Positions 52,256-62,598 of a DNA stretch of 64,000 nt are shown in pieces. The translations under genes were made by a program, and so were the position numbers. The stretch is from Opitutales bacterium (GTDB lineage Bacteria; Verrucomicrobiota; Verrucomicrobiia; Opitutales; Oceanipulchritudinaceae): assembly GCA_020831525.1 (NCBI GenBank), contig JAFIGH010000005.1, positions 1 through 64,000 of the forward strand, given 5' to 3'. The notes below the pieces were generated by a model. It worked only from the letters and a program-made list of their open reading frames with translations. It was not told the origin of the DNA and ran no database searches. The stretch's first letter is position 1, and each line of letters begins with the position of its first letter.

Positions 52256-52345
52256 TTTTTAGACGAGGCGGTGCGCCTTACAGAAGTGGTGCGGCGCATG
52301 CGCAAGATGGAGTTCAAGGGCAAGGTAGGATGACCAAGCCCTTCG
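52256..52345 (+). pseudogene. Remnant of a Phd-VapC module (antitoxin tail plus toxin start)
   Basis: The end of a frame here encodes 'EVVRRMRKMEFKGKVG' and overlaps, as ATGA at 52330, a start encoding 'MTKPF'. The intact module at 57079-57806 ends its antitoxin 'EEVRRMREMELEGEEG' and starts its toxin 'MTKPF' with the same ATGA overlap. The DNA of 52283-52337 matches 57289-57343 at 48 of 55 positions. The rest of the antitoxin and toxin is missing. After 'MTKPF' the toxin frame continues without a stop into the CotH gene, so a 5' toxin fragment became an in-frame leader of that gene. Confidence 0.8.
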
Positions 52346-52419
52346 CCGGGCCCCGTTTCCGTGCGCGCTCTACGCGAATCGGTTTGTGTATCCGGAGCAC
52401 CGTGCAATGCTTGCGGAAA

Positions 52420-55400
52420 ATGCCCCTTTTTCATTGTTCGCGCCCCCGCATTCTGCGCATTCTTGCGTTTACACTCCTCCTCACCGCCGGTTCCGCCGAG
52501 GCGACGGTGCGAATCAACGAGTTCATGGCCTCGAACGGTGCGACGCTCGCCGACGAGGACGGCGACTACGAGGACTGGATCGAACTGCGCAACTTCGGTG
52601 ATGCGCCGGTCTCCCTCGACGGCTGGGGGCTCTCCGACAACGCGGGCAATCCCTTCAAATGGGTTTTCCCCGAGGGAACCGTCCTTGAGCCGGACGGCTT
52701 TCTCCTCGTGTGGGCTTCGGGCAAGGACCGCGGCGGCACGGGGTCCGGGAACGACACCGAACCGCTGTCTCCCGATGCCGTGGACGGGCTTGTGCTGCGC
52801 CTGCGCGCGGCTGATTTGGAGGCGGCCCATGGCGCCGGCGTCGCCGTGTGGCCGGATACGAGCGGCCGCGGCAACAACGCCTTGCAACCGCAGGGTGCGC
52901 GCCGTCCCGTCTTCGCCGCCGACGGTCTGAACGGGCGTCCGGTGCTCCGCTTCAACCGCTCCGCCGCCCAGCAGTACTTCCTGCCGACCGCCGGCTTCGC
53001 AGGCATGCAGGATTTCACGGACTTCACCTTTCTCGCCGTAGCCCGTTGGACGGGCGGGGCGCGGTCCGGATTTTTCGGGGGCTACCGCGGCACAAACCCG
53101 GCCAACGCGGGCAGCAGCGTCGTGGAAATCAGCGACACGGGCGGAGGGTTCCGCCTGAGGCTCCCGCCCACTATCGATGTAACCGCCCCCAACGCCCTTA
53201 CGCAAAACCAGTGGCATGTGGTCGGGGCGTTCATGGACGGAGCGGCGGCGCGGGCGCGCCTCACGATTGACGGTGCGCTCCTTGCGGAGGCCAGGGGAAC
53301 GGTCGGACGCACGCTCCTCGCCGACTACGAAAGGGTGCCCGTGGGCAGTTCCCACGACGACACCCGCACCTTCGGCGGCGATATCGCGGAGGTGCTGCTC
53401 TTCAACCGCGGCCTCTCCGCGGAGGAGCAGGCGGGGGTGGAGCGCTACCTCGAAGCCTACTACGGCTTGGCGGACGGCCCGCGCCATCCGCACACGAACT
53501 TCCGCATCGCCGCGGCGGGAGAGGAACTGCTCCTCACGCGACCGGACGGCACGCTGGTGGATTTTATCGATCCCGTGCCGGTGCCACGGGATGTTTCCTT
53601 CGGCCGCACGCTGGAGGAACCGGAGACATGGGCTTACTTTTACGAGTCCACCCCCGGTGCCGCCAACACGACAACACCGTTTTCCTCGCTTCTTGAACCG
53701 GTGAGCCTGTCCCGTGCGGCGGGTGCCTACAGCAGTGCGTTCGATTTGACCCTCTCGCATCCGGATCCGGAGGTCACCGTAATCTACACGCTCGACGGTT
53801 CCGAGCCCGACATCGACAACCTCGGCGGCTCGACATACAGCTACGTCAACTCGTACCCGGACGGTCCTTTCCTGCAAAACACGTTTGCCACCCGTGCTTA
53901 TGCCGGTCCCATACACATTGCCGACCGCAGCGGCGAACCGGACAAGCTGGCGCGCATCTCCAGCACGGCGGATTCGAGCCCGTCCTATTTTCCGCTTTCG
54001 CCGGTGAAGAAGGCGACCGTGGTGCGGGCGCGCGCCTACCGCGACGGCGCCGCCGGCCCGGTGACGACGGCGACTTACTTTGTCTCCGCCGCCGACGCCT
54101 TCGCTTACGATATGCCCGTCGTTTCCCTGAGTGTGGATGAGAACGGTCTCTTCGACTTCTTTGACGGGATCTACGTCGCGGGGGTCGACCATGCCACGGG
54201 GAGCGGAGCGCGCATCTGCAACTGGGGCAACTACAACCGCCGCGGACGGGAGAACGAACGTGCCGCGCACATCGAGTTCTTTGCGGACGGCTCGCGCTTT
54301 CTCGAACAGGCCGGCGGCATACGTATCCAAGGGAATTGCTCGCGCCAGGGGGCGTTCAAGAGCCTCCGGCTTTACGGGCGAAGCAGCGGCTTGGAGGACA
54401 ATGTATTCGATTTTCCCTTCTTTCCCGAGCGCGTTCCCGGCGCGGTTTATCCGGACAACACGCTCCACCGGCGCTTGATCCTGCGCACCCCGAACTTCTA
54501 CGACACAGCCTTCAGCCGCCTGTACCAAGCAGTCTACGAAGGCGTGGGCGGCCGCGTCCGGCCCGTGAAGCAATTCCTCAACGGTGAGTACTGGGGCATG
54601 GCGTTTTTGCGCGACCGTTTCGATCCCTACTATCTGGAGTACCACTACGGGCTCGATCCGGACAACATCACAATCATCGGGATGTCCTACCGGCACGAGT
54701 TCGAGCCGATACCGATCAGTTTCAGCAACCGTGTGTATTCGCTTTCGAGCGGCATCCCGGAGGACATGGCGGCCTTCGACGCAATGCGCTCCTTTATCAT
54801 CGGGAGCGATATGTCCGACCCCGTGCGTTTTGCCGAAGCGGAGGAATGGATTTGTATCGACTCGTTTATCGATCACCTCGTCCTCAAGATCTTCGCCGGC
54901 GACGACCACTACGCCCCGGAGATCGTCTACTGGCGGGCCCGCGAAGCGAAGAACGACGACTTCGGCGACGGGCGCTGGCGCTTCTTTGTGAAGGATTTCG
55001 ACTCCACGCTGCGCTCCGGCAATTATGTCGCCGGTCTTGCCACGGGCACCCATCCGCGCCCGTTCGGCCATGAGCTTTTCACGAGCCTCCTCGACAGCCC
55101 GGATTTCCGCACCCGCTTTATCAACCGCTTCGCCGATCTGCTCAACACGCACTTTCTGCCGGAGCGCTTCGAGGAGATCATCCGGCACGCCTACGACGAG
55201 GTTGCTCCGGTCTGGCCGGAGGTGACGGCGCGCTGGAGAAACACTTCCCTGAGCAACCCCGACCGTCCGTTCACTCCAGACAACCGCGCCAACCTGCTGA
55301 ACTGGGCACAACACCGCCCGGCCGTGCAGCGCTCACACCTCCGCAGTCACTTTTTGCTCCAGACACAGCGGACGCTCACAGTGGATGTATCCGATCCGTC

Positions 55401-56925
55401 GGCGGGGCGCGCGCAGGTGAACACGGTCGTCATCGACGACGGGACCCCCGGTGTGACTTCGCCGCCGTATCCGTGGACGGGGCTCTATTTTCCGGATCAT
55501 CCGGTGCGGCTGACGGCGCTTCCGCAGGATGGATTCCGCTTTATCGAATGGCGTGTCGCGCCAACGGGCGGGGGGGCGTCCGTCGTTTACACCGACCCGG
55601 TTGTCGAACTGAATGTCGCGGCGGCGACAACGGCGGAGGCCGTCTTCGCGCCGCTCCCGCCCGCCTTCATCGAAACAGCGGCCGGGACCCCCCTGACTTT
55701 CGATTCCCGTGAATGGATTCCCGGCGACGGCACCGCCTCCGGCATTTCCGCGGCCAGCAGCGACGATTCGGTCCTCGTCGCCTCGGTCGTGGACCATGCG
55801 CTTGTCCTCACGCCGCTCGCGGCGGGCGAGGCGACCGTTGAACTGGCTGTGGACAGCGGCGATGCGCCCGGCTTCGGGCATAGCCTGCGCGTCCTCGTCT
55901 ACGGCACACCCTTTGCCGTGGCGGAGAGTGTCTTCGTTTTCGATGCATGGGCGGCGGACGCGCCTGCCGGAAGCTACCCGCCCCACATGCTCTTTACGCA
56001 GAGCGACGTAACCGACCCCGGCCTCGAAACGCCGCTTCTGTATGCCTACCGCATTCCGCCGGAGGATGCGCGGGAGACGGAGGATGCTTTCTTCCCCTAT
56101 GCCGCGTCCAGGCGCACGCGTATCAACGGACTCGGCGACGAGGGCGTCCGCTTCATCAACACCGGGCGCGGGCGCGATCTCGGCGCGGCGGTGCTGACCC
56201 TCGACACGACCGGTGCGTCGGACATCCGCGTCGCGTGGACGGCGGGGACTGACTTGCCCAACAGCCGGGTCTACGCCCTGCGCCCGCAATACCGGACGGG
56301 CCTTGACGGCGCATGGACGGACATCACCGACGGTCAGGGCGTGCCCACGACCTATGTGCGGAACGAATCCGCCGGGCATGCGCAGACGTTCGGCCCCGTG
56401 CTTTTGCCGTCGGCGGTGGAGAACCTGCCTGTTGTTCAACTCCGCTGGAAATACCACCACGTCTCCGGAAGCAGCGGCCCACGCGCCGCCCTGCGCCTTG
56501 ATGACATCATCGTCGCGTCCGGGGCGCCGACGCGTTTTGCGGACTGGATCGTGTCCGCAGTCCCGGACGCCGCCTTGCGAAGCGACCCGGAGTTTTCCGG
56601 TCCGGACGCCGACCCGTCGGGAAAGGGCATTGCCAATCTCCTGCGCTACGCTCTCGGGCTGGGGCTCATGGAAGCGCCCGCGGAGCGGCTGCCTGTGCTG
56701 GAGGCCGCGGCGGAAGGGTGGGTCTACCGGTTTCCTTTGGATCCGTCCCTGACCGACATCACCTACCGTGTGCGCGCCTCGACTGACCTCGTGGACTGGT
56801 CCACGGTGCTCTTCGACTCGCGGGTAGATGCCGATCCTCAGCCCGTCGGCGGCTGGCTGCACCTTCCCGTCCTGCCCGCGCCGCACCGATTCTTCAAGCT
56901 CACCATCGACACAGAGCCAGAGTGA
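52420..56925 (+). CDS. Secreted CotH-kinase protein with LTD and LamG domains
   Basis: The 1501-residue protein has a signal peptide (ending near 'SAEA'), a lamin-tail-like LTD domain (~30-110, 'RINEFMASNG' and 'DWIELRNFG'), a LamG-like domain (~120-320), a chitobiase/HYR-like segment ('YTLDGSEPDIDN', ~460), and a CotH kinase domain (~560-900). The latter has 'NGEYWGMAFLRDRF' (~722-735) and the catalytic-type pair D859-F-D861 in 'FVKDFDSTL'. CotH proteins are atypical protein kinases. The C-terminal ~450 residues contain beta-rich modules and end with 'YRVRASTDLVDWSTV', a module common in the inferred phylum. I start at the ATG at 52420 because it begins the signal peptide; the open frame extends to 52330 only through the toxin remnant. 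Substrate unknown. Confidence 0.88.
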   Translation: MPLFHCSRPRILRILAFTLLLTAGSAEATVRINEFMASNGATLADEDGDYEDWIELRNFGDAPVSLDGWGLSDNAGNPFKWVFPEGTVLEPDGFLLVWASGKDRGGTGSGNDTEPLSPDAVDGLVLRLRAADLEAAHGAGVAVWPDTSGRGNNALQPQGARRPVFAADGLNGRPVLRFNRSAAQQYFLPTAGFAGMQDFTDFTFLAVARWTGGARSGFFGGYRGTNPANAGSSVVEISDTGGGFRLRLPPTIDVTAPNALTQNQWHVVGAFMDGAAARARLTIDGALLAEARGTVGRTLLADYERVPVGSSHDDTRTFGGDIAEVLLFNRGLSAEEQAGVERYLEAYYGLADGPRHPHTNFRIAAAGEELLLTRPDGTLVDFIDPVPVPRDVSFGRTLEEPETWAYFYESTPGAANTTTPFSSLLEPVSLSRAAGAYSSAFDLTLSHPDPEVTVIYTLDGSEPDIDNLGGSTYSYVNSYPDGPFLQNTFATRAYAGPIHIADRSGEPDKLARISSTADSSPSYFPLSPVKKATVVRARAYRDGAAGPVTTATYFVSAADAFAYDMPVVSLSVDENGLFDFFDGIYVAGVDHATGSGARICNWGNYNRRGRENERAAHIEFFADGSRFLEQAGGIRIQGNCSRQGAFKSLRLYGRSSGLEDNVFDFPFFPERVPGAVYPDNTLHRRLILRTPNFYDTAFSRLYQAVYEGVGGRVRPVKQFLNGEYWGMAFLRDRFDPYYLEYHYGLDPDNITIIGMSYRHEFEPIPISFSNRVYSLSSGIPEDMAAFDAMRSFIIGSDMSDPVRFAEAEEWICIDSFIDHLVLKIFAGDDHYAPEIVYWRAREAKNDDFGDGRWRFFVKDFDSTLRSGNYVAGLATGTHPRPFGHELFTSLLDSPDFRTRFINRFADLLNTHFLPERFEEIIRHAYDEVAPVWPEVTARWRNTSLSNPDRPFTPDNRANLLNWAQHRPAVQRSHLRSHFLLQTQRTLTVDVSDPSAGRAQVNTVVIDDGTPGVTSPPYPWTGLYFPDHPVRLTALPQDGFRFIEWRVAPTGGGASVVYTDPVVELNVAAATTAEAVFAPLPPAFIETAAGTPLTFDSREWIPGDGTASGISAASSDDSVLVASVVDHALVLTPLAAGEATVELAVDSGDAPGFGHSLRVLVYGTPFAVAESVFVFDAWAADAPAGSYPPHMLFTQSDVTDPGLETPLLYAYRIPPEDARETEDAFFPYAASRRTRINGLGDEGVRFINTGRGRDLGAAVLTLDTTGASDIRVAWTAGTDLPNSRVYALRPQYRTGLDGAWTDITDGQGVPTTYVRNESAGHAQTFGPVLLPSAVENLPVVQLRWKYHHVSGSSGPRAALRLDDIIVASGAPTRFADWIVSAVPDAALRSDPEFSGPDADPSGKGIANLLRYALGLGLMEAPAERLPVLEAAAEGWVYRFPLDPSLTDITYRVRASTDLVDWSTVLFDSRVDADPQPVGGWLHLPVLPAPHRFFKLTIDTEPE

Positions 56926-57078: not shown

Positions 57079-57339
57079 ATGAAAACAGCGACCGTGCGGG
57101 ATTTGAGGAACAACTTCGGCAAGCTGGAGACATGGCTTGCAGCGGGCGAGCGCATTGAGATCCGGCGGCGCGGCAAACCGGTGGCGACGTTGACACCGGC
57201 CTCGCCGCAGGCGTCGGAGGCGCACGTCGAGCTTCCCGACTTTGAGGCGCGGCGGAAAGCGATCTGGGGCGACCGCGTCTTCAGCGCGGAAGAGGTGCGG
57301 CGCATGCGCGAGATGGAACTCGAGGGCGAGGAAGGATGA
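57079..57339 (+). CDS. Phd/YefM-type antitoxin
   Basis: The 86-residue protein has a Phd/YefM N-terminal DNA-binding domain: 'VRDLRNNFGKLETWLAAGE' followed by 'IRRRGKPVATLTP'. The acidic C-terminal tail ('SAEEVRRMREMELEGEEG') would wrap the toxin. It should repress its own promoter at the operator directly upstream. The stop overlaps the toxin start (ATGA at 57336). The tail is nearly identical in DNA to the remnant at 52283-52337. Confidence 0.9.
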   Translation: MKTATVRDLRNNFGKLETWLAAGERIEIRRRGKPVATLTPASPQASEAHVELPDFEARRKAIWGDRVFSAEEVRRMREMELEGEEG

Positions 57340-57806
57340 CCAAACCGTTTCCCGACACGTCTTTCCTCTGTGCGATCTACCGCGAGCAGGTGAATTCCGG
57401 CCGGGCGGACCGGATCCGCGCGCGCATCCCCGGCGCTCTCCCGGTGTCGGCGCTTGTTCTCTTCGAGTTCCGGCAGTCGGTGCGGCTGCATGTGCGGCTG
57501 CGGCGGAAGGACCGCAATCTCGGGTTCAGCAAGGCGGAGGGCGCGGCCATGTTGCGCGACTTGCAGTCCGATCTCGCCACGGGCGTGCTCGATGTGGTCC
57601 CCGTGGACTGGGCGGGGGTTTTCGCGCTGGCGGAGATGCTGAGTGCGAAACACACGGAGACCGGCGGGCACCGCTTCGCGGACATTCTGCACGTGGCCAC
57701 GGCGCTGCATCTCGGCGCGGCGGAATTTCTGACCTTCGACGACAACCAGCAGGCTCTCGCCGGGGCCGAGGGGATGGCTGTGCCGGACGACTGCGCCGTC
57801 GGTTGA
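57336..57806 (+). CDS. vapC: VapC-like PIN-domain toxin
   Basis: The 156-residue PIN-domain RNase partner starts 'MTKPFPDTSFLCAIYREQ' with the catalytic Asp at position 7, and has Glu in 'LFEFRQSV' and Asp in 'GGHRFADILHVATALHLGA' plus 'LTFDDNQ' near the end. It pairs with the Phd-type antitoxin. It differs from the VapC at 48463 in antitoxin type and in sequence. Its first five codons are the ones retained in the remnant at 52330. Confidence 0.9.
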   Translation: MTKPFPDTSFLCAIYREQVNSGRADRIRARIPGALPVSALVLFEFRQSVRLHVRLRRKDRNLGFSKAEGAAMLRDLQSDLATGVLDVVPVDWAGVFALAEMLSAKHTETGGHRFADILHVATALHLGAAEFLTFDDNQQALAGAEGMAVPDDCAVG

Positions 57807-58139: not shown

Positions 58140-59231
58140 ATGGACACGACCACTTACACAATCGGCAACAAGACCTTCACCCTCGACCGCGCGAAAGCGG
58201 AGGCGGCCTACGCGGCCAAGCGAGTCATCAACGGCCGCGACACAATGTTCTTCAACATCCTCCCGCTCAAATACCAGTGGGCCTACGACCTCTACCGGAC
58301 GATGAAGAACAACCACTGGGAGCCCGAGGACATCCCCATGCAAAAGGATGTCGAGCAATGGCGTGACACCTCCGGCACGATCTCCGAAATCGACCGCTGG
58401 ATCATCAAGATGGCCATCGGCTACTTCAGCGCGGCAGAGGGCATCGTGGGCGACAACATCATACATGTCACCCGTGAGGTAGTGACGGCGCCGGAATTGA
58501 AGCTCGTCCTCGGCCGCCACGCCCACGAGGAAAACATTCACGCCGACAGCCTCGTCTACATGATCAGTTCGCTGGGCATCAACCCCCACGAGTGCGAGGC
58601 GATGTTTGAGGATATCCCCACGATCACGGAAAAGAACAGCCTCGTCGTGAACAACAGCCGTGCCCTGCGCAAAGACCTCGACTTCAAGGAAACGCGCAAC
58701 AAGCAGGAACTGGCCAAGAACATGTTCCTTTTCGGCCAGTGCATGGAGGGCACGCAGTTTTACGGGCTCTTCGGCATGGTCCTGAGCCTCTACCGGCAGA
58801 ACAAGTTCCCCGGCATCGGCCAGATGTTCCGCTACACGCTGCGCGATGAGTCCAACCACATTGAGCTCTTCAAGCACCTCTTCCTCGACCTCGTCGACGA
58901 AAACCCCGATGTCTGGACCGACGCGTTCCAAGCCGAACTCACCGAACTCATGAAGGAGGCAGTGCGGCTTGAAAAGGCGTTCATCGCCGACTGCCTGCCG
59001 GTCAACGCAGTCGGTCTCAGCGCGGAAGAATTTTCGCAGTACATCGACTACATCGCCGACCGCCGCCTCGAAGGGGTCGGGCTCTCCCCCCTCAACCCCG
59101 GCGTCCAAAACCCGCTGCCATGGCTCGCGGAACTCATGGATGTCTCCAAGGAGCAAAATTTCTTCGAGGGCCGCGTGACCGAATACCAAAAGGCCGGCGC
59201 CCTCGATTCTGTCGACGACGACGACCTCTGA
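58140..59231 (+). CDS. nrdB: Class I ribonucleotide reductase subunit beta (R2), class Ic-like
   Basis: NrdB generates the thiyl radical precursor for deoxyribonucleotide synthesis in the R1/R2 complex. The 363-residue chain has the six metal ligands E100 ('SAAEGIVGD'), E131 and H134 ('HEENIHADS'), E203 ('CMEGTQFYG'), E237 and H240 ('RDESNHIELF'), and the C-terminal Tyr349 in 'RVTEYQKAG' needed for radical transfer. The residue four after H134, where classical R2 proteins carry the radical Tyr, is Leu138. Chlamydial class Ic R2 has Phe there, uses a Mn/Fe cofactor, and has Glu as first ligand as here. The first ligand and the string 'SLGIN' right after also fit that subclass. The start ATG lacks a Shine-Dalgarno and follows 'ACCACC'. 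The acidic end is DDDDL. Confidence 0.95.
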   Translation: MDTTTYTIGNKTFTLDRAKAEAAYAAKRVINGRDTMFFNILPLKYQWAYDLYRTMKNNHWEPEDIPMQKDVEQWRDTSGTISEIDRWIIKMAIGYFSAAEGIVGDNIIHVTREVVTAPELKLVLGRHAHEENIHADSLVYMISSLGINPHECEAMFEDIPTITEKNSLVVNNSRALRKDLDFKETRNKQELAKNMFLFGQCMEGTQFYGLFGMVLSLYRQNKFPGIGQMFRYTLRDESNHIELFKHLFLDLVDENPDVWTDAFQAELTELMKEAVRLEKAFIADCLPVNAVGLSAEEFSQYIDYIADRRLEGVGLSPLNPGVQNPLPWLAELMDVSKEQNFFEGRVTEYQKAGALDSVDDDDL

Positions 59232-59340: not shown

Positions 59341-62300
59341 ATGCTACGACACACCGCATTTGAAGAAGACCTCGCACTGAAACGCTTCGCCTACGCTCCC
59401 GCCGATTCCAAGCCGCGCTTTGACTGGGCCGGGATCGTACGCGACAACGCGCGCTTCCCCGCCGACATGATGCCCGACACCGTCAAGGTGAAGATCGACG
59501 ACGATGTCTGCGACTTCGACCTCGGCGAGATCGCCGAGACCGTGGGCGGTGCCCTCACCAACCTCCTCCTCTCCCGCGACGAGGAGGAGAACGCCATCTA
59601 CACCGACAAAAACCGCGAGTTTGTGGGCCTCGTCGCCCGCGCTGTGGCCGATCGCCTCGCCAAGCTTGCGCAGGAGGGCAAGGCCCTTACGCTGAGCGAG
59701 CGCGAGATCTACATCCTCATCGAAAAGACCCTCATCGAGAACAACGCCCCCGACGTCGCAAAGAGCCTCCTCATGCTCCGCAACGCCGGCCGCGACACGC
59801 GCGACACGCCTGTCAATGTGCGCGTCATCCGCCGCAACAGCAAGGAAGTGCCATGGGACGACGGCAAGGTGGAAGTCGCCGTGCGCAAGGCCTTTCTCAC
59901 GCTCGGGCTCGACTCCGAGCCCGCCGTGGCCGTTGCCAAAGCCGTCGGCGACCGGGTCCGCGCGCTCAACGTCTCGCGCATCCACATCGAGGAGATTCAG
60001 GACATCGTGCAGGAAGAGCTGATGCGCCTCGGGCACTTCAAAGTCGCCGAGGCCTACATCCTCTACCGCGCGCACCGGCGCGCCCTCCGCGAGGTCGAGG
60101 CCCGCGACGTTTCCGGCGATGACGCCCGCCAGGAGAGCATGATCCTCATCACGCTGCCCGACGGCGCCAACATCTTCTGGGACGGCGCCGACCTCAAGCA
60201 GCGTATCGACTACGCCATGATCGGCCTCGATCTCTGCATGACGCGCGAGCAGATCGAGACCGAACTGCGCCGCTCTATCTACCCCGAGATGAAGCTGGCC
60301 GACCTGCGCAAGACCATCATCCTCAACGCCAAAAGCCTCACCGAGCGCGACGCCGACTTCGGTAAGTTCGCCGGGCGCATCCTCCTCACCTACATCTACG
60401 AGGAAGTTCTCGACTGGAGCATCGGCGAACACGGCATCGGCCGTCTCAAGGAATTCCACCAGAAGGCCTTCCGCCGCTACATCAAACACGCCGTTTCGAT
60501 CGACCGGCTCCAGTCCGTGCTCGCCGAGCGCTACGACCTCGACGTGCTCGCCGAGGCCCTCGACCCGGGTGCCGACATGGACTTCGACTTCCACGGCATC
60601 CAGACACTCTACGACCGCTACCTCCTCGTCGACAAGACGCGCCGCGATCCGCGCCGCCTCGAAACCCCGCAGTTCTTCTGGATGCGCGTCTCCATGGGCC
60701 TCTTCATGGAGGAGAAGGAAAACGCGGAGAACTGGGTCATCCAACTCTACAGTCTCTACAAGAGCCGCCGCTTCTGCTCCAGCACGCCCACGCTCTTCAA
60801 CAGCGGCACCCACCACAGCCAGCTCTCTTCCTGCTACCTCTACAAGGTCGACGACTCCATCGAGAGCATCATGCTGCGCGGCATCGCCGAAAACGCCTTC
60901 CTCTCCAAGTGGGCGGGCGGCCTCGGCGGCTCATGGACCTCCGTGCGCGGCACCGGTTCCTACATTCAGGGGACCAACGGCGAGAGCCAGGGCGTCATCC
61001 CCTTCCTCAAGATGCACAACGACCAGCTCGTCGCCGTCAACCAGGGCGGCAAGCGGCGCGGCTCCGGATGCGCCTACCTCGAGACATGGCACAACGACGT
61101 CTACGACTTTCTTGAACTGCGCCGCAACGTGGGCGACGACCGCCGCCGTACCCACGACATGAACACGGCCAACTGGATCCCCGACCTCTTCATGAAGCGC
61201 CTCGTCAAGCGCAATGAGCCGGGCGCGAAAAAGCACTGGACGCTCTTCCGCACCAACGAGGTTAAGGACCTTCACGACCTCTACGGCGCGGCTTTCGAAG
61301 AACGCTACGAGCACTACGAGCGTCTCGCCGAAGAGGGCCGCATCTGGAGCCGCCGGGTCGAAGTCGTCGACCTGTGGAAACAGATGCTGCGCATGCTCTT
61401 CGAGACGGGCCACCCGTGGATCACGTTCAAGGACCCGTGCAACGTCCGCAGCCCGCAGGACCACTGCGGCGTCATTCACAGCTCCAACCTCTGCACCGAG
61501 ATCACCCTCAACACCGGCGCAGACGAGACGGCTGTGTGTAATCTCGGATCGGTGATTCTTGAAAATCACCTCAGCGCCGACGGGTCGCTCGATCTTGAAA
61601 AGCTGCGCGAGACGATCCGTATCGCCGTGCGCGCGCTCGACAACGTCATCGACATCAATTTCTACCCGACCGAGGCTGCCCGCAACGCCAACATGCGCCA
61701 CCGCCCCGTCGGCCTTGGCGTCATGGGCCTGCAAAACGCCCTTCTCAAGAAGGGGCTCGCCTTTTCCAGCGACGAGGCCGTGGAGTTCAACGACGAGTTC
61801 ATGGAGGCTGTGGCCTTCTACGCCTACGAAGCCTCCAGCGATCTCGCCGCCGAGCGCGGTGCCTACAGCACCTATGAGGGTTCCAAGTGGTCCCGCGGCC
61901 TCCTCCCGCAGGACACCCTCGACCTCCTCGAAAAAGAGCGCGGCGTCGCCCTCGATGTCCCGCGCGGCGGCAAGATGGACTGGCAGCCCGTGCGCGACAA
62001 GATCGCCCGCCAGGGCATGCGCAACTCCAATGTCCTCGCCATCGCGCCCACCGCCACGATCTCGAACATCATGCATTCGAGCCCGTGTATCGAGCCGACC
62101 TACAAGAACCTCTACGCCAAGAGCAACCTCGGGGGCGAGTTCGTCATCCTCAACCCCTATCTCGTCAAGGAGTTGAAGAACCGCCGCCTGTGGGACGACG
62201 ACATGCGCGATCAGCTCAAATACTTCGAGGGCGATCTCTCCAAGATCGACCGTATCCCCGACGACATGCGCGACCGCTACCAGACGGCCTTTGAGATCGA

Positions 62301-62598
62301 CTTCGTGTGGGTCATCCGCGCCGCCGCGCGCCGCCAGAAGTGGATCGACCAGAGCCAGTCCGTCAACCTCTGGCTCTCCAAGCCCGACCTCAAGACGCTC
62401 TCGCACATGTACCGCGCGGCATGGGAACAAGGACTCAAAACGACCTACTACCTGCGCACCATCGGGGCCTCCAATATCGAAAAGGCCACCGTCAGCATCA
62501 AAGCCGAGCAACCCAAGCGTGTCTACACCGAGGCCGAAAAGCAGGCCTGTTCCCTCGAAGCGCGCATGCGCGGCGAGGAGTGCGAAGCCTGCCAGTGA
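59341..62598 (+). CDS. nrdA: Class I ribonucleotide reductase subunit alpha (R1) with ATP-cones
   Basis: NrdA reduces ribonucleoside diphosphates to deoxyribonucleotides. The 1085-residue chain is long because of N-terminal allosteric regions: one ATP-cone-like domain at ~38-145 and a second at ~158-255 ('RVIRRNSKEVPWDDGKVEVA'). The catalytic set is intact: redox cysteines C498 ('SSCYLY') and C733 ('AVCNLGS'), active-site N716-L-C718-T-E720, radical-path Tyr1036-Tyr1037 ('TTYYLRT'), and the shuttle pair C1081-x-x-C1084 at the end. Multiple ATP-cones also occur in chlamydial NrdA, in keeping with the R2 type next door. No Shine-Dalgarno is seen; the ATG follows 'CACCACCGCC'. Probably co-transcribed with nrdB. 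Confidence 0.96.
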   Translation: MLRHTAFEEDLALKRFAYAPADSKPRFDWAGIVRDNARFPADMMPDTVKVKIDDDVCDFDLGEIAETVGGALTNLLLSRDEEENAIYTDKNREFVGLVARAVADRLAKLAQEGKALTLSEREIYILIEKTLIENNAPDVAKSLLMLRNAGRDTRDTPVNVRVIRRNSKEVPWDDGKVEVAVRKAFLTLGLDSEPAVAVAKAVGDRVRALNVSRIHIEEIQDIVQEELMRLGHFKVAEAYILYRAHRRALREVEARDVSGDDARQESMILITLPDGANIFWDGADLKQRIDYAMIGLDLCMTREQIETELRRSIYPEMKLADLRKTIILNAKSLTERDADFGKFAGRILLTYIYEEVLDWSIGEHGIGRLKEFHQKAFRRYIKHAVSIDRLQSVLAERYDLDVLAEALDPGADMDFDFHGIQTLYDRYLLVDKTRRDPRRLETPQFFWMRVSMGLFMEEKENAENWVIQLYSLYKSRRFCSSTPTLFNSGTHHSQLSSCYLYKVDDSIESIMLRGIAENAFLSKWAGGLGGSWTSVRGTGSYIQGTNGESQGVIPFLKMHNDQLVAVNQGGKRRGSGCAYLETWHNDVYDFLELRRNVGDDRRRTHDMNTANWIPDLFMKRLVKRNEPGAKKHWTLFRTNEVKDLHDLYGAAFEERYEHYERLAEEGRIWSRRVEVVDLWKQMLRMLFETGHPWITFKDPCNVRSPQDHCGVIHSSNLCTEITLNTGADETAVCNLGSVILENHLSADGSLDLEKLRETIRIAVRALDNVIDINFYPTEAARNANMRHRPVGLGVMGLQNALLKKGLAFSSDEAVEFNDEFMEAVAFYAYEASSDLAAERGAYSTYEGSKWSRGLLPQDTLDLLEKERGVALDVPRGGKMDWQPVRDKIARQGMRNSNVLAIAPTATISNIMHSSPCIEPTYKNLYAKSNLGGEFVILNPYLVKELKNRRLWDDDMRDQLKYFEGDLSKIDRIPDDMRDRYQTAFEIDFVWVIRAAARRQKWIDQSQSVNLWLSKPDLKTLSHMYRAAWEQGLKTTYYLRTIGASNIEKATVSIKAEQPKRVYTEAEKQACSLEARMRGEECEACQ

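Follow-up and report, generated by a model that had tools for sequence, protein, structure and literature searches.

The window analysed here, a stretch of 64,000 nucleotides from an Opitutales bacterium, encodes a ribonucleotide reductase (RNR) small subunit, R2, with leucine at the position of the radical tyrosine. The locus raises the question of where such an enzyme holds its oxidising equivalent, and on which metals.

An R2 gene with a complete metal site and no radical tyrosine

The R2 gene is read as follows:

58140..59231, + strand: nrdB, class I R2 subunit, Leu type, 363 aa (ORF translation; Pfam PF00268, 228 bits)

The product falls in the Pfam family Ribonuc_red_sm (PF00268) and scores 331.8 bits against the NCBIfam model PRK07209 (cut-off 309); its closest PDB sequence is the NrdB of Chlamydia trachomatis (1syy, E 6e-75). 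The family, the six metal ligands and the adjoining R1 gene identify NrdB as the small subunit of a class I RNR. A Pfam profile search finds no second R2 gene in the window's genome. Just 5' of nrdB lies a toxin-antitoxin-like pair (57079-57806, +), whose first ORF is Phd/YefM-like at 26.8 bits, below the Pfam cut-off of 29.8, and is followed by a PIN-domain ORF. A large ORF (52330-56925, +, 1531 aa) resembles, judging by its translation alone, a secreted protein of the lamin-tail/CotH-kinase kind.

Residues E100, E131, H134, L138, Y140, E203, E237 and H240 were read directly in the NrdB translation, and their codons all lie between 58428 and 58860, the interval given in the original prediction. 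Conservation was assessed in an alignment of 144 non-paralogous R2s of the same Leu clade, drawn from an even sampling of the phylum, from 80 named genome contigs and from relatives retrieved by genome search, with tandem paralogues left out. The metal site comprises:

58437..58439, + strand: E100, metal ligand 1, Glu as in classes Ic and Id, versus Asp in Ia and Ib (Glu in 144/144)
58530-58532 and 58539-58541, + strand: E131 and H134, metal ligands (144/144)
58551..58553, + strand: L138, radical-tyrosine site (H134+4), codon CTC (Leu in 144/144)
58746..58748, + strand: E203, metal ligand (direct reading and clade alignment)
58845..58859, + strand: D236 (PCET Asp), E237 and H240 (metal ligands; H240 at 58857-58859), each in 144/144

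The two readings behind the original prediction, six intact ligands and leucine four residues after H134, are thus borne out both by the direct check and by the relatives: the EEHEEH ligand set and L138 recur in 144/144 members from across Verrucomicrobiota. In the alignment, L138 shares its column with F127 of C. trachomatis NrdB (mutated to Tyr in structure 2ani) and with the Tyr of Asp-type R2s. Across the aligned R2s, ligand 1 is Glu when this column holds Leu or Phe, and Asp when it holds Tyr, the sole exception being a class Id-like R2 with Glu and Tyr (L028). A Phe/Glu pairing has been described for class Ic (PMC8463856). The combination found here, Glu as ligand 1 with no Tyr at the radical site, is that of class Ic in 144/144 sequences, with Leu in place of the Phe of the type enzyme. 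The radical Tyr and Asp ligand of classes Ia and Ib are both absent, and all four carboxylate ligands are present, unlike in the metal-free class Ie, where carboxylates are replaced.

Conservation and distribution of the Leu clade

All six leucine codons are used at position 138 (CTC 60, CTG 44, CTT 22, TTG 14, CTA 4 and TTA 3 in 147 sequences), which indicates that the residue is retained while its codon drifts. The 144 relatives and the six codons also rule out chance or an assembly or sequencing error at this site. R2 is present in 90 genomes of an even sample of 289 Verrucomicrobiota genomes. In the 86 of these 90 in which the type was read, Leu is the most frequent (56/86), ahead of Tyr (19) and Phe (11). 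Named carriers include Cerasicoccus arenae, C. frondis and Haloferula luteola, alongside many MAGs of Opitutales, Puniceicoccaceae and Akkermansiaceae. The suggestion that the Leu variant may mark a subgroup of the PVC lineage is right in that the clade exists, but the evidence shows it for Verrucomicrobiota, the phylum covered here, and not for the PVC superphylum at large.

Twelve closed, single-contig genomes (G052, G122, G125, G152, G168, G251, G299, G302, G279, G282, G070, G091) each encode one R2, of the Leu type, and one class I/II barrel protein. Profile searches of these 12 genomes give no class III NRDD/NrdD, and nothing in them exceeds the cut-off for PF17975, the domain of monomeric class II enzymes. 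The Leu R2/R1 pair is the only detectable RNR in them, and the Leu R2 must therefore work, making dNTPs. A second reductase, NrdJ-like and of class II, is encoded on a different contig of the window's genome, so this particular organism may be able to do without the Leu enzyme.

R1 partner and electron-transfer chain

The catalytic subunit is encoded downstream of nrdB, and three residues of R2 mark the route by which a hole would reach it:

59341..62598, + strand: nrdA, catalytic subunit R1 of class I, 1085 aa (Pfam matches to an ATP-cone and to the N-terminal and barrel domains of R1)
58317..58319, + strand: W60, aligned with C. trachomatis W51 (W in 143/143 Leu-clade rows covering the position)
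58833..58835, + strand: Y232, aligned with C. trachomatis Y222 (Tyr in 144/144)
59184..59186, + strand: Y349, C-terminal tail Tyr, predicted to pass the hole to R1 (144/144; in the column of the C. trachomatis NrdB tail Tyr)

NrdA is a complete R1 and scores 1200 bits against PRK07207 (cut-off 965). Its residues C498, N716, C718, E720, C733, Y1036, Y1037, C1081 and C1084, the last two forming a C-terminal CxxC, are present in nearly all related R1s. On the R2 side, W60, Y232, D236 and Y349 align with W51, Y222, D226 and Y338 of C. trachomatis, which we take to be electron-transfer residues, W51 being the presumed entry of the route. Judged by these alignments, the electron-transfer chain of the window enzyme is intact.

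A probable class Ic-like enzyme

The window enzyme is likely to be a working class I RNR whose R2, lacking a radical tyrosine, is class Ic-like and keeps its oxidant on the metals, probably as Mn(IV)/Fe(III). Mn(IV)/Fe(III) is the first guess because the Mn/Fe NrdBs of C. trachomatis come closest both in sequence and in fold. A structure model of the protein has pLDDT 79.7. The nearest solved structures by fold are C. trachomatis NrdBs, including Mn/Fe forms and the F127Y mutant, with a VIA Z score of 37. The steps that we infer are these. O2 would react with a pair of metals, most likely Mn(II)/Fe(II), to form a high-valent cofactor in which the oxidising equivalent itself resides, probably Mn(IV)/Fe(III). 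At each turnover a hole would leave the metal, travel along W60/Y232/D236 and the tail residue Y349, and arrive at Y1036/Y1037 and C718 in R1, which would reduce NDPs under the control of its ATP-cone. Leu138 would be an inert filler in the place of the radical Tyr, and Thr233 stands where that pocket usually has Ile:

58836..58838, + strand: T233, four residues before ligand E237 (Thr in 144/144; in the column of class Id Thr294/Thr191)

That the enzyme works like class Ic can be proposed with moderate certainty. With C. trachomatis NrdB (1syy, 4d8f, 4m1i) it shares Glu as ligand 1, a Tyr-less radical site, the fold and the W/Y/D and tail-Tyr positions, as well as the ATP-cone of the partner R1, which is carried by Ic and Ia R1s (PMC8463856). 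It differs in having 39% identity, Leu for Phe, Thr233 for Ile, and a place in what appears to be another clade. The original prediction, which took class Ic R2s to carry Phe, was too narrow: a passage of PMC3824934, citing Hogbom 2010, already reports Leu, Ile and Val in R2c, and the subclass Ic references in the text of PMC12918982 have "phenylalanine or leucine". The marine viral "subclass Ic-like" R2s of the latter source (PMC12918982) likewise replace the radical Tyr by an aliphatic residue, but they are viral and the residue is Ile or Val instead of Leu. In the ferritin-like subunit of class O RNR, either Phe or Leu occupies the radical site (eLife 2022, PMC9531940), a likeness drawn from the published description alone and set against the fact that class O is a minimal RNR family.

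A possible separate origin of the Leu clade

The prediction also overlooked that the Leu clade appears, on sequence grounds, to be separate from the Chlamydia-type Phe R2 clade; some Verrucomicrobiota, like Chlamydia, have a Phe R2c of that other clade. In trees, the Leu clade forms its own branch (support 99/96) and Tyr-type R2s are placed among the Phe-type. At most diagnostic positions the Phe-type resembles near Tyr-type R2s, and both are unlike the Leu clade, which differs from Phe R2c by its specific residues W87, D105, H109, Q200, T205, Q206 and N239. Gene order differs as well. All 72 R1-linked named Leu loci have nrdB-nrdA, whereas the 10 linked Phe-type loci of Verrucomicrobiota all have nrdA-nrdB; an nrdR-nrdA-nrdB order is found in Chlamydia and in haloarchaeal Ic (Lundin et al., PMC3019208). 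The Leu clade also has an acidic ...DDxL tail that sets it apart from Chlamydia Ic. From the trees, operon order and clade-specific residues it is plausible that Tyr was lost in the Leu clade independently of Chlamydia R2c. However, a topology test does not reject a single Tyr-less clade of Leu and Phe types (p-AU 0.207), and the trees bring long branches together.

The many differences from Phe R2c around the metal site run counter to the Ic-like reading. A further view is that Tyr was lost independently of R2c and that the Leu/Glu/Thr cofactor is unlike those of both Ic and Id, being either a Tyr-less Mn2 centre or Mn/Fe with a Thr233-held water as proton partner in the emptied Tyr pocket. 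We consider this possible but on balance doubtful. If true, the Leu clade would form a class I subclass of its own and provide Verrucomicrobiota with their main aerobic RNR, the subclass being new.

Thr233 and the dimanganese alternative

The T233 column is occupied by Ile in 17/17 Phe-type and 8/8 near Tyr-type R2 rows. In alignments, Thr294 of class Id falls in this column; it lies four residues before Glu298 and keeps the Tyr away from Mn1 (PMC6754362, PMC8463856). The Thr four residues before ligand 5 that is typical of class Id is thus found in 144/144 Leu-clade members. Since this Thr is common to the Leu clade and to an Mn2-using class, dimanganese is a reasonable rival for the metal pair: the Leu clade would use a superoxide-activated Mn2(IV,III) cofactor, as does class Id, represented by NrdBi of Flavobacterium johnsoniae (6cwp) and Leeuwenhoekiella blandensis (6sf5). 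The Glu at ligand 1 and the invariant Thr in the class Id Thr294/Thr191 column (PMC6754362, PMC8463856) speak for such a cofactor, and the class Id oxidant is likewise metal-centred, as is expected here. However, the helix-B Lys found four residues after ligand 1 in the characterised class Id subgroup is replaced by Gly104 in 144/144 sequences. The Glu ligand of class Id is accompanied by a radical-site Tyr, which is essential in F. johnsoniae (PMC8463856), whereas Leu138 stands in its place here. Known class Id R1s are without the ATP-cone (PMC8463856) that NrdA carries, and in sequence and fold the window R2 is nearer to Ic than to Id (Z ~30). Because the helix-B Lys and the Id Tyr are missing and the R1 has an ATP-cone, the Leu clade is not class Id, and a dimanganese cofactor of the Id kind is rather unlikely. 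The original guess of Mn/Fe therefore keeps its likelihood from the nearest structures, the Mn/Fe NrdBs of C. trachomatis, but Mn/Fe is not implied, as the Thr is shared with Mn2-using Id.

No substitute tyrosine

Alternatively, another Tyr or Trp (e.g., Y95, Y140, Y208 or Y232) could hold a stable protein radical beside an Fe2 or Mn2 centre. One candidate had been named in advance as a residue that, as the radical site, would overturn a metal-centred radical:

58557..58559, + strand: Y140, excluded as radical residue (Tyr in radical-Tyr R2s too; His in L101)

By alignment, the Y140 column holds Tyr also in R2s with their own radical Tyr (L204, L205, L038) and His in a Leu-type R2 (L101), which rules Y140 out and leaves the metal-radical reading standing. 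Y208 is replaced by Phe in two rows, and L097 has Phe at this position. In favour of a protein radical, Y95 and Y232 are invariant in the Leu clade, and every Phe-type R2 has Phe at the Y95 column. However, Y232 is shared by Tyr-bearing and Phe-type R2s; the Y95 column holds Tyr also in E. coli-like R2s, which possess a radical Tyr of their own, and Y95 lies five residues from its ligand, probably on another face of the helix. A stable radical on one of these residues is accordingly judged quite improbable. Since no substitute tyrosine is found, the metals most likely hold the oxidising equivalent, and a metal-centred radical, as originally deduced from the leucine, is by far the likeliest outcome for a site without a redox-active residue.

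The missing radical Tyr and distant NCBIfam R2lox matches (<=50 bits) might point to a protein with no part in ribonucleotide reduction, either an oxidase of the R2lox type or an R2 in decay. This is scarcely credible, given the complete and strictly conserved ligand set, the adjoining R1, and the 12 closed genomes, which have no R2 but this one and a single class I/II barrel protein; R2lox identity itself is ruled out by scores far under the cut-offs and by the radical-transfer tail Tyr, absent from R2lox but retained as Y349 in 144/144.

Novelty and significance

Leucine at the Ic radical site is already known; the Verrucomicrobiota clade, its sole-RNR status and its Leu/Glu/Thr signature appear undescribed in the open-access literature. 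No paper on an Opitutus or Verrucomicrobia R2 was found there, nor any bench study (metal analysis, EPR) of a Leu-clade member, which is weak evidence of absence, and PDB sequence and fold searches gave no solved structure of a Leu-clade R2. The Phe enzyme of C. trachomatis is the type and the best-studied example of a Tyr-less RNR with a metal oxidant. The Leu clade, widespread and for the most part free-living, offers a second lineage, one whose pocket combines Leu with a polar Thr. It lets one ask which residues put the radical on the metal pair instead of a tyrosine, and which decide between Mn/Fe and Mn2. The 12 closed genomes without another detectable RNR show that the Leu design alone can support growth, and cultured members (Cerasicoccus arenae, Haloferula luteola) make tests practical.

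Variants and outliers

Several R2s depart from the common pattern. L101 (G081) is a deep-branching Leu R2 with H140 and Glu at the W47 column that retains L138 and T233, and it could help to date the clade. L028, which is class Id-like (Glu/Tyr, helix-B Lys, Thr), is the only R2 found in G009, a genome of the same family as the window genome; its top PDB matches are class Id structures, and it apparently stands in place of a Leu R2. A Leu R2 inside the Verrucomicrobiota clade comes from a record titled Fimbriimonadaceae (Armatimonadota, L174) and may reflect a mis-binned contig or gene transfer. In a 74% complete genome, the Leu R2 L030 (G005:C114) is split into two open frames by a frameshift, possibly an assembly error.

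Phage matches are all below 60% identity, and the three phage R2s read (L212, L213, L216) have Tyr with Asp; a scan of viral contigs gives a single match, at 22% identity (L217). In two genomes a second R2 stands in tandem beside the Leu nrdB: L098 (G149:C11, ~44.2-45.5 kb) and L103 (G235:C42, ~61.9-63.1 kb). Both have 51-53% identity to the window R2 and retain the six ligands and Leu, with the changes Y232 to Asn, Y140 to His, W87 to Asp, D105 to Tyr and F211 to His. From these changes they look like beta-prime paralogues, similar to Rnr4 of yeast, in which the radical-transfer Tyr has been lost.
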